Origin: Selenomonas ruminantium subsp. ruminantium ATCC 12561
GTDB taxonomy: Bacteria > Bacillota > Negativicutes > Selenomonadales > Selenomonadaceae
Direction: 5' to 3'
Assembly: GCF_000424065.1 (NCBI RefSeq)
Contig: NZ_AUJE01000026.1
Span: forward strand, 1 to 58,802
Length of the DNA: 58,802 nt
Shown: positions 436 through 28,066 of the stretch, piece after piece
Numbering within the stretch: position 1 is the first letter of the stretch
How the letters are laid out: the number at the start of each line of letters is the position of its first letter
The notes under the pieces: model-generated
Told to the model about the DNA's origin: nothing
Seen by the model: only the letters and a program-made list of their open reading frames with translations
The model's database searches: none
Position numbers and translations under genes: made by a program

Positions 436-846
436 TCACTTCCTTTGCGATGTTTTTTGGCTCTCGATATACTGCTTCACGATGTTAAGCGGAGCACCAC
501 CGACAGTGGAGCAAAAATAGCTGTTTGTCCATAGGCTAGGCAGTTTAGTTGTCAGCCATGGAAATTCCTGCCTCAAGATACGAGAGGTCTTGCCCTTGAT
601 AGTCTTTACGGCTTTGTGAACACCGAACTGCGGGTGAACCTCCAGTAGAAGATGCACATGGTCTGGCATGATTTCCATTTCGATTACATCGACTTGGATT
701 TCTTCACAGATTGACTTGACCAGCTCCTTTAGTCTGGTGTCAACGCCATTGACCAACACTTTTCTGCGGTACTTGGGACAGAACACGATATGGTACTTAC
801 ATGAATATACGATATTGTGGCTTGAATGATATTTTATTTCTCCCAT
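436..846 (-). CDS. tnpA: IS200/IS605 Y1 transposase TnpA
   Basis: Single-strand DNA transposase of the HUH/Y1 class that excises and inserts the IS as a single-stranded circle. The protein (136 aa from the start chosen at 846, MGEIKYHS) carries the HUH motif H63-V-H65 in 'MPDHVHLLL' and the candidate catalytic tyrosine Y126 in 'VKQYIESQ'. The open frame continues to 912, but the extra 22 residues are hydrophobic and unlike the family, and family members begin close to 'HNIVYSCKYHIVFCPKYRR'. Length is normal, with no frameshift visible. It lies upstream of tnpB in the same orientation. Confidence 0.92.
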   Translation of the reverse strand: MGEIKYHSSHNIVYSCKYHIVFCPKYRRKVLVNGVDTRLKELVKSICEEIQVDVIEMEIMPDHVHLLLEVHPQFGVHKAVKTIKGKTSRILRQEFPWLTTKLPSLWTNSYFCSTVGGAPLNIVKQYIESQKTSQRK

Positions 847-26404: not shown

Positions 26405-27187
26405 TTATGTGGAAAAATAAAGCTGCTTGATTTCAGCTACAGCTTCCGGAATATTGGTAGGACATACATGAATGCCATAACCGACATAGAGCGGCGGTGT
26501 GGCAAAACGGGGCATGATTTTGGCATAAACTTGTCCCTTTAGCTGGTAGAAGAAGATATTGTAGCTTTGTATCCGTCCTTGATGAAAATGACGGGTGAAA
26601 TAGTCGGTGCCAATTTGCAGGAATTTGGCCAAAGCCGAGATGGCAGCAGGGCTTTCGATTTCTGCAGGGATAATATTGAGTTCCCAGAATCCGATTCGGG
26701 GAGTGGTGGAGATATTGAATTCCACGCCGTTTTGACAGGTGATGATTTCCCCAGCAAACTCCTCCGGCAGAGCGCTCAAAGGCTGTTCCAGGTGAGGAAA
26801 GGCTACAATCTGCATATGTGGATGACGGATAGTCCCGCCGGATAGCGGCCCATAGTTCTTGAAGAACACCACATCATCATATTTGCCGGATTGCAGGAGC
26901 CGCTGCCAATGGTGCAGGCCAAAGCGCAGCAGGCGTTCCATATGGGGGGCAGAGTAGTCTGGCATATCGCTGTGACAGATATCCGTTTCAATCAGGACGA
27001 ATTGTTCCGTGCCGGAAAGGACGTTATATTTATTGCGCAGCAGGATAATTGGCCCATCTTTATCGATGATATCCGTCAGTTCCTCTGGATGGCAGAAGGG
27101 GCAGTAGTTGTCCGGATGACGGATGGTTTCCGGTTTATTCTTTCCTATCTGCATATCAAAGTCTATGATATTGTATGGTATGGCCAT
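26405..27187 (-). CDS. DUF4931 family, GalT/HIT-like nucleotidyltransferase fold
   Basis: A 260-aa protein with a zinc-type 'NYCPFCHPEE' near the N-terminus and the HIT/GalT active-site segment 'GGTIRHPHMQIVAFP' (H-P-H-x-Q). The layout resembles galactose-1-phosphate uridylyltransferase, shortened, and corresponds to the DUF4931 family. The enzyme activity and substrate are unproven. Minus strand; ribosome site AAGGTGG. A candidate promoter, TTGTTT 17 nt TAGACT, lies around 27235-27265 on the minus strand. Confidence 0.75.
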   Translation of the reverse strand: MAIPYNIIDFDMQIGKNKPETIRHPDNYCPFCHPEELTDIIDKDGPIILLRNKYNVLSGTEQFVLIETDICHSDMPDYSAPHMERLLRFGLHHWQRLLQSGKYDDVVFFKNYGPLSGGTIRHPHMQIVAFPHLEQPLSALPEEFAGEIITCQNGVEFNISTTPRIGFWELNIIPAEIESPAAISALAKFLQIGTDYFTRHFHQGRIQSYNIFFYQLKGQVYAKIMPRFATPPLYVGYGIHVCPTNIPEAVAEIKQLYFST

Positions 27188-27355: not shown

Positions 27356-27547
27356 TTAAAGGGCACGCTGAACCTTACCAGAACGCAGGCAACGCGTGCA
27401 GACGTTGACACGTTTCACTTCGCCTTCAACAACAGCGCGTACACGCTGGATGTTCGGCTTCCAAGTGCGTCTCGTCTTCAAGTGGGAATGGCTGACATTG
27501 TTGCCAGACAGTTCGCCTTTAGCGCAGATTTCGCAAACACTTGCCAT
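27356..27547 (-). CDS. rpmB: 50S ribosomal protein L28
   Basis: 63-aa L28 of the zinc-ribbon type: C5-x2-C8 ('CEICAK') and C50-x2-C53 ('CTRCLRS'), with 'SHSHLKTRRTWKPNIQRVRA' as the rRNA-binding core. Very strong ribosome site AGAAGGAGGTG, 8 nt before ATG. Minus strand, monocistronic; the structured RNA candidate lies upstream of it on the same strand and might form part of its leader. Confidence 0.96.
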   Translation of the reverse strand: MASVCEICAKGELSGNNVSHSHLKTRRTWKPNIQRVRAVVEGEVKRVNVCTRCLRSGKVQRAL

Positions 27548-27634
27548 GTGTTACACCTCCTTCTAAAAATATGGTCTAATATACTCGAATATACATATCT
27601 AAGCACATTTGAACCCTATAAACATAAATTTAAG

Positions 27635-28031
27635 GAATGTTTGCCCTTCATACAACAAAAGGGCAAACGTCCTCTTTTGTGGCATCTCTGCCATCTCCGT
27701 GCAAGCACGGGAAATTTCCTTCTTGCCCATGTCATCATGAAGCTCATGTGTTTCCCTGTTATCCCCGCAGGACATTAGCGGTGTTTCTTGGTTGGCACTC
27801 TCAGAGCAGCGGACTGATGGTTTACATCCGCAGGTGAGTCTTTAACTTATCCCGACAACTTAGTTCATCCCGCAAACAGCTTTCGCTGAACACGGTCACT
27901 TGGGCTTGAAACGGCCCGTTAAGCATATGTATATAAGATTTTGTCCACTTATATACATATTTATCGATATTTTCAACTACTTAACGGTTCGTCCTTAACC
28001 TGTGGGAGCCAACTCGCTCCTAACACACAAT
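27635..28031 (-). ncRNA. unassigned structured RNA candidate (about 400 nt)
   Basis: Downstream of a strong minus-strand promoter lies a coding-free stretch full of stable stems, read on the minus strand: GGAGC/GCTCC; a two-part long hairpin CCGTTAAG/CTTAACGG enclosing CTTATATACATA/TATGTATATAAG (27916-27987); CAGCGAAAGCTG with a GNRA tetraloop; CATGAGCTTCATG; CCGTGCTTGCACGG; GGCAGAGATGCC; and a final stem GTTTGCCCTT/AAGGGCAAAC (27639-27668). It does not show RNase P (GAGGAAAGTCC), tmRNA, SRP, 6S, T-box or lysine-riboswitch signatures that I can find. The last stem lacks a strong U-tract, so read-through into rpmB, 90 nt further, is possible. Confidence 0.55.
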
Positions 28032-28037
28032 AATGGT

Positions 28038-28066
28038 ATTTTAGCACAAAAAGTGGGGGGGTGCAA
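28038..28066 (-). promoter_or_regulatory. promoter of the structured RNA candidate
   Basis: On the minus strand: TTGCAC (28066-28061), 17-nt spacer, TGC-TAAAAT (extended -10, 28043-28038). Predicted start near 28031. Confidence 0.7.

Follow-up and report, generated by a model that had tools for sequence, protein, structure and literature searches.

A putative ORF-less IscB/omegaRNA element inserted in the Shine-Dalgarno box of rpmB in Selenomonas ruminantium

The structured region upstream of rpmB in Selenomonas ruminantium subsp. ruminantium ATCC 12561 was best explained as a non-autonomous IscB/omegaRNA mobile element that has lost iscB by deletion, targets the Shine-Dalgarno box and carries an omegaRNA that IscB, an enzyme ancestral to Cas9, could use in trans, a reading in which we place good confidence. 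Sequence comparison showed an insertion, empty sites at related loci, kinship with IscB elements, a kept RNA structure and a family-wide position in Shine-Dalgarno boxes. The window, that is, the whole stretch of DNA analysed, comprised 58,802 nucleotides of contig NZ_AUJE01000026.1. The element falls within the reported region, 27548-28066. The features of the locus were as follows, a slash marking the element junction.

27356..27547, minus strand: rpmB, encoding ribosomal protein L28 (PF00830, TIGR00009)
27554..27564, minus strand: rebuilt Shine-Dalgarno box of rpmB, AGAAGG/AGGTG, with the AAGG half from the right end of the element
27559..27615, minus strand: right end of the element, ending TTTTTAGAAGG, homologous to the right ends of full-length copies
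27559..27992, minus strand: putative ORF-less IscB-type mobile element, 434 bp; the junctions may slide by 1 nt (shared A)
27993..28012, minus strand: rpmB 5'UTR, 20 nt TTGGCTCCCACAGGTTAAGG, abutting the 5' side of the element; predicted omegaRNA guide
28038..28066, minus strand: native rpmB promoter, with a weak -35 TTGCAC and an extended -10 TGCTAAAAT

In a DNA search of 60 related genomes, the first ~54 nt of the region matched rpmB leaders of the genus and the rest matched elsewhere in the same genome and in siblings. The 434-bp insertion was not found at any of the 11 same-genus rpmB loci read. At these loci the leader passed into the ribosome-binding site without interruption (AAGGAGGTGTAACACATG). 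AAGG and AGGTG are 434 bp apart in the window, and the original Shine-Dalgarno box had as its left half the final AAGG of the 20-nt 5'UTR. Since the feature is missing from all 11 loci and near-identical sequence stands before unrelated genes, it is an insertion and not a native L28-regulatory leader. The extended -10 was identical in nine of the 11 insertion-free leaders and one to two bases off in the other two (TGTTAGAAT in L010, TGCTAGAAT in L013). The promoter reported in the preliminary description is real and is the native promoter of rpmB; its rating as near-consensus was too generous, with TTGCAC matching TTGACA at 3/6 positions and the promoter unlisted by a consensus scanner. Transcription is expected to start near 28031 (-), and the structured RNA probably lies in the rpmB leader transcript. 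Directly downstream of rpmB, a DUF4931 gene with N- and C-terminal domains occupied window positions 26405-27187 (-).

A full-length relative was present in the same genome (G000:C2). It was 93.7% identical to the window copy over 316 nt, followed by a 417-aa ORF and then by the common right end (89.8% identity over 49 nt). The ORF passed the NCBIfam model guided_IscB (NF040563) with 265.9 bits at a cut-off of 175 and contained the Pfam domains RRXRR and HNH. Its closest PDB sequence was HfmIscB (9k2z; 561.9 bits). RuvC and HNH motifs look intact as read from the sequence. The gene iscB was the only one between the ends of this copy. Seven panE-gene loci without the element were found as empty-site siblings of G000:C2 (7/9 panE-type sibling loci read, L136 and L140 left out). 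A sister ORF-less copy at G020:C63, located before secG, was 94.8% identical to the window copy over 440 columns. A plasmid DNA search gave no match. In the plasmid protein search (60 records), every best place had an identity below 60%, with 25-32% among the 20 matches listed. The internal parts of the window copy were assigned by comparison with these relatives.

27599..27694, minus strand: iscB remnant, a frame of 31 codons that begins with the first codons and closes at the original ...KCA stop, with most of the gene deleted
27677..27925, minus strand: omegaRNA scaffold, covered by alignment A1 and model R1
27681..27692, minus strand: terminal omegaRNA hairpin GGCA-GAGA-TGCC, overlapping the iscB start region in full-length copies
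27916..27987, minus strand: left-end two-part hairpin, with an 8-bp outer stem, a small 4-bp hairpin and a 13-bp inner stem

The window copy holds a short frame in place of an IscB-encoding gene, and it is the full-length sister copy that passes NF040563. The 31-codon frame is unlikely to matter, since its 3' part is shifted in the sister copy G020:C63. The scaffold is homologous to the RNA that lies directly 5' of iscB and overlaps its start. Judged by these sequence relations, the window feature is akin to an IscB element but ORF-less, and is made up of the left-end hairpin, the omegaRNA scaffold, the terminal hairpin over the old iscB start and the right end.

The view of the region as highly structured was borne out. 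The fold of 27560-28035 (-) had a minimum free energy of -148.5 kcal/mol versus a shuffle mean of -118.45 kcal/mol (z -5.36), and 0/100 shuffles were as good. Both hairpins singled out at the outset were present, the GNRA-capped stem at 27877-27888 (-) as CAGC-GAAA-GCTG and the two-part hairpin at 27916-27987 (-), and the suggested check for covariation was positive for the left-end hairpin as well as the omegaRNA scaffold. The left-end hairpin was analysed over 25 pairs in eight distinct relatives (alignment A2, with 9 of 12 left ends; L049, L052 and L085 left out). In these, 96.0% of cells were paired versus 27-53% in slid controls, which preserve relatedness, although they are biased towards a structure that was itself obtained from these sequences. 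Both-sided changes occurred at 9/25 pairs, a count reached by 17/500 shuffles, and the covariation score was reached by 0/500, in a comparison that is inflated by relatedness. The number of further pair types was not above that of the shuffles (422/500 reached it).

For the scaffold, 21 of 24 extracted omegaRNAs from Selenomonas, Mitsuokella, Clostridia, Bacillus and staphylococcal phages were aligned (A1). L050, L101 and L102 were left out for large insertions, and the extraction had excluded L048, which had lost its 5' end, as well as L100, L114 and L121. The consensus comprised 42 pairs, 26 of them with double-sided changes, and 95.4% of cells were paired versus 34-41% with slid partners, a control with the same bias towards the derived structure. 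The window copy formed 41 and the G020 copy 40 of the 42 pairs. Against the R1 model, the window scaffold, itself part of the training set, scored 244 bits. The terminal hairpin (helix 10) showed double-sided changes at 2/5 pairs. Three ORF-less copies in G552, read by eye, had lost the ATG and kept the terminal stem with other bases and one wobble variant, though the three may descend from one ancestor. Taken together, the omegaRNA looks selected.

At gathering score, the Rfam scan returned no family in the region, in agreement with the earlier statement that no signature of a housekeeping RNA or riboswitch was present; the single gathering hit of the window was a tRNA far away. Riboswitch, tmRNA and RNase P were ruled out on this basis. 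Matches to mir-722, mir-297 and SNORD101 were discarded as eukaryotic families far below their cut-offs. An ncr952 match in L031 (24.3 bits versus 100) was discarded too. At relaxed thresholds, HEARO (RF02033) matched with an E value of 0.0069 and 24.8 bits versus a gathering score of 83, with all 211 model positions aligned. Six sister copies tested scored 21.1-28.2 bits and likewise did not reach the gathering cut-off, presumably because the model was built from other IscB clades. HEARO RNAs are the omegaRNAs of IscB elements, and the sub-threshold match was therefore a lead toward IscB/omegaRNA.

ORF-less copies were sought in 380 genomes of the class and 398 of the phylum with strict filters, and in 13 of the order of G552, a search in which weak copies may be missed. 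Five ORF-less copies had an omegaRNA traceable all the way from left end to terminal hairpin, and were located before rpmB (window), secG (G020) and hup, pfkA and rplK (G552), the rplK copy showing a local loss. The names hup, pfkA, rplK, rpmH, secG and panE rest on Pfam. The omegaRNA model also weakly matched other IscB clades (L170, L177, L178), which were left out of the counts. With respect to iscB of the clade, G000 held one intact gene, G552 three and G020 one cut by a contig end. A decayed remnant in G290:C131 (L169, 1623-1704 (-)) comprised the left end and part of the omegaRNA, fused to the rpmH Shine-Dalgarno box; in G290, no clade iscB was found at E <= 1e-20.

These copies bear on the possibility that the window feature is an IscB element with an internal deletion, stranded in the rpmB leader, devoid of present function and still structured because it is recent. 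Most of iscB is gone and the mini-frame is not conserved, the two Selenomonas copies, the only ones of the ORF-less form known there, are 95% identical, and the decayed copy before rpmH sits in a genome without a matching iscB, all of which would fit such a remnant. Against it, the Selenomonas copies occupy two different loci, which suggests that the ORF-less form itself moved, and the window copy keeps nearly all of its consensus pairs. The G552 copies, possibly of common ancestry, preserve the terminal stem in changed bases despite the loss of the start codon, and all three genomes with ORF-less copies (G000, G020, G552) hold a clade iscB. We consider this explanation unlikely, while granting it a real share of the probability.

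The preferred reading, an element that targets the Shine-Dalgarno box, rests on the junctions. The junction table comprised 29 elements from genomes and phages, 28 of them with a readable right end, and the ends were placed by eye from conserved end sequences. Phage VL10 (L125, both ends degenerate) and the duplicates L083 (of L045) and L084 (of L048) were left out, and the ORF-less G552 copies L176, L182 and L187 were not included in the junction counts. In the right junctions printed first, the element ended directly before a ribosome-binding site and ATG in 6/6 readable cases. Over the whole table, an ATG followed the right end at 6-16 nt in 27/28 elements, and the ORF it opened had 60 codons or more in 25/28. 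The exceptions were frames of 59 codons in a phage and of 11 codons in a Lachnospiraceae element, and a Neobacillus copy without a nearby ATG. As background, an ATG with an ORF likewise followed 196 of the 1577 AGG sites of the window (12.4%).

The left flank ended in RGG in 22/23 elements; GAG (G020:C63) and AAG (L187) broke this rule. L176, L182 and L187 had right ends reading AAGG/AGG before ATG and left flanks AGG, AGG and AAG, respectively. Of 18 elements of the Selenomonas, Clostridia and phage types, 17 had a right flank starting with AG, which in 14 was AGG. This flank and the element end ...RGG together recreate an AGGAG-like box, and the window junction forms a perfect AAGGAGG. The 10 Bacillus-type elements mostly ended in CCAGG or similar, and their right flank started with AG in one case. 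The TAM of IscB lies on the far side of the insertion; with AG in 17/18 flanks of the former types versus 1/10 of the Bacillus type, AGG is only a candidate TAM. Comparison with the insertion-free phages BS1 and BS2 placed the opening of the sites after AAGG, and phage JDF86 carried one extra AGG at the right junction versus its empty relative BS1. From these junction sequences, the element family appears to target the Shine-Dalgarno box and to rebuild it with its own end.

Further phage loci were recorded alongside. In Staphylococcus phage RSM-J51Sa (L126, PV020493), a shortened IscB element belonging to this family interrupted a Shine-Dalgarno box; the related phage phiSA_BS2 had none. Two staphylococcal Herelleviridae (L123, L124) contained full clade IscB elements, annotated as HNH endonuclease or hypothetical protein. 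The genes immediately following them were a PhoH-related one and a hypothetical one close to the tail sheath gene. In the more distant IscBs L103 and L104 (36% identity), AGG and ATG also followed soon after the stop, and the Shine-Dalgarno habit may extend past the clade. No description of Shine-Dalgarno-targeting IscB elements or ORF-less omegaRNA elements was found in the titles and abstract openings of the literature matches listed, which is no proof of absence.

Because the ends had been placed by eye, the position was compared with that of other IscBs under two criteria applied blind. The first called for AGGA, GGAG or GAGG and an ATG, GTG or TTG within 150 nt of the iscB stop. It did not separate the groups significantly (15/25 clade members versus 10/27 other IscBs, p = 0.08), the sample being 27 of 29 controls (without L086 and L087) and all but one of the 26 clade loci (L059, for lack of an ORF). 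The second criterion, chosen after the junctions had been seen, required within 120 nt an AGG and, 4-16 nt further on, an ATG opening an ORF of 59 codons or more; it picked out 23/26 clade members versus 5/25 other IscBs (p = 7e-7). Here, 25 of the 29 control loci were used, without L086 (short flank), L087 (no ORF) and L099 and L112 (truncated ORFs), and VL10 (L125) was counted as a miss. Applied unchanged to 21 fresh loci from viral contigs, the only out-of-sample set and one of partly interrelated loci, it picked out 16/21 versus 1120/12600 random stretches of the same loci (8.9%), or 15/20 without L198, a duplicate of L194. Among the misses, L196, L199 and L205 had a box and ATG without the required frame, L190 had a box and GTG, and L206 had nothing.

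Survival alone could in principle produce such a bias, if insertion were loose and copies inside genes were lost. Selection against insertions in coding sequence is expected, and AGG is widespread. Survival would, however, favour intergenic sites in general and not a position 6-16 nt before an ATG, and the other IscB clades, under the same selection, were picked out by the second criterion in the mentioned 5/25 cases, with uncertain right ends. This explanation is regarded as rather improbable. A regulatory role, in which L28 synthesis has come under the control of the inserted RNA, by itself or with IscB bound to it, received still less credence and is judged very unlikely. The element does lie in the 5'UTR directly before the Shine-Dalgarno box, and the ORF-less copies precede housekeeping genes; yet the same RNA stands before unrelated genes, the box is rebuilt, and conservation in the leader of the same gene, as expected for a native riboswitch or r-protein leader, was lacking in all 11 same-genus rpmB leaders, by which the earlier proposal of a very long leader controlling L28 was overturned. 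The suggestion of a new non-coding RNA held for the structured non-coding RNA region itself, but a separate class unrelated to known systems, for which the missing Rfam family at gathering score would speak, is refuted by the linkage to iscB, with near-identical RNA directly upstream of the gene and overlapping its start codon in full-length copies and a weak HEARO match across the whole model, and can practically be dismissed.

Among known systems, the closest resemblance of the inserted IscB-type element was to IscB/omegaRNA (OMEGA). Shared traits were a large omegaRNA upstream of iscB and overlapping its start, a protein with RRXRR and HNH domains, and a full-length sister in the same genome. 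The window copy differs in the absence of iscB, and its family in sitting inside Shine-Dalgarno boxes and rebuilding them. The RNA aligned to HEARO over the full length of the model, yet far below the gathering score. With IS200/IS605, the element shares insertion 3' of a fixed short sequence (RGG) at the left end and a hairpin near that end. Insertion without target duplication was observed insofar as the AGG at the right end is taken to be element-borne, JDF86 having its extra AGG. IS608 follows a tetranucleotide rule. The window element differs from IS200/IS605 in having no tnpA and in its target, the core of the ribosome-binding site, and the full copy contains no Y1 transposase gene. MITE-like IS derivatives likewise keep their ends, have an internally deleted protein gene and are presumably moved in trans; the window element differs from these in keeping a guide-RNA scaffold with 41/42 consensus pairs.

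The genome has 10 Y1 matches, one of them in the window (457-810), and no transposase acting at AGG was identified. The Y1 match in the window belongs to an IS605-like element at window positions 1 to ~990, which consists of the Y1 transposase gene (457-810 (-)) and then an apparent tnpB start and runs off the contig end. The stretch had 20 matches listed in the genome, several of them at contig ends. It was inspected as a transposase donor, and nothing observed ties it to AGG.

On this reading the element inserted where AAGG met AGGTG in the rpmB leader, and the AAGG at its own end restored the full AAGGAGG before rpmB. L28 should still be translatable because the box is rebuilt by the element end. 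For transcription, guide use, the action of IscB in trans and the TAM, we infer the following course, in which the element would also be mobilised in trans by a transposase. The rpmB promoter would transcribe leader, omegaRNA and rpmB as a single RNA, with the guide coming from the final ~16-20 nt of the rpmB 5'UTR and the scaffold from the element. According to PMC9640706, IscB takes a 5' guide in the omegaRNA, of which ~17 nt pair with the target. IscB supplied by the full-length copy G000:C2 may then bind the window omegaRNA in trans, a function that is a reasoned guess. The complex would cut rpmB alleles without the insertion, where the guide match is followed by AGG, and repair would restore the element. 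If AGG is the TAM, the occupied allele would be spared, since the guide match there precedes the ACGAAC of the element. Four of the 11 empty rpmB sites matched the last 16 nt of the guide exactly (L006: 20/20) and all four continued with AGGTGTAA; an indel shifted the match in the remaining seven, with an additional substitution in three. A site between promoter and Shine-Dalgarno box would supply transcription and guide and leave the gene translatable.

In extension of this course, we tentatively propose a two-tier form of RNA-guided homing in ribosome-binding sites, an idea that could well prove wrong. Elements consisting of a guide RNA only, in the Shine-Dalgarno boxes of the housekeeping genes rpmB, secG, hup, pfkA and rplK, would borrow promoter and 5'UTR guide, rebuild the box and rely on IscB acting in trans from full-length relatives, by which empty alleles would be eliminated or converted. 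The window feature represents, on our reading, a guide-RNA-only form of an IscB-family element that has specialised in ribosome-binding sites, and its Shine-Dalgarno position is the surprising part. Insertion at this position would explain how promoter and guide are gained without breaking the host gene. It would also explain a possible penalty for loss from an essential gene and the persistence of guide-only derivatives. As a warning for annotation, a structured '5'UTR RNA' upstream of a housekeeping gene can turn out to be a mobile guide RNA missed by the Rfam HEARO model.
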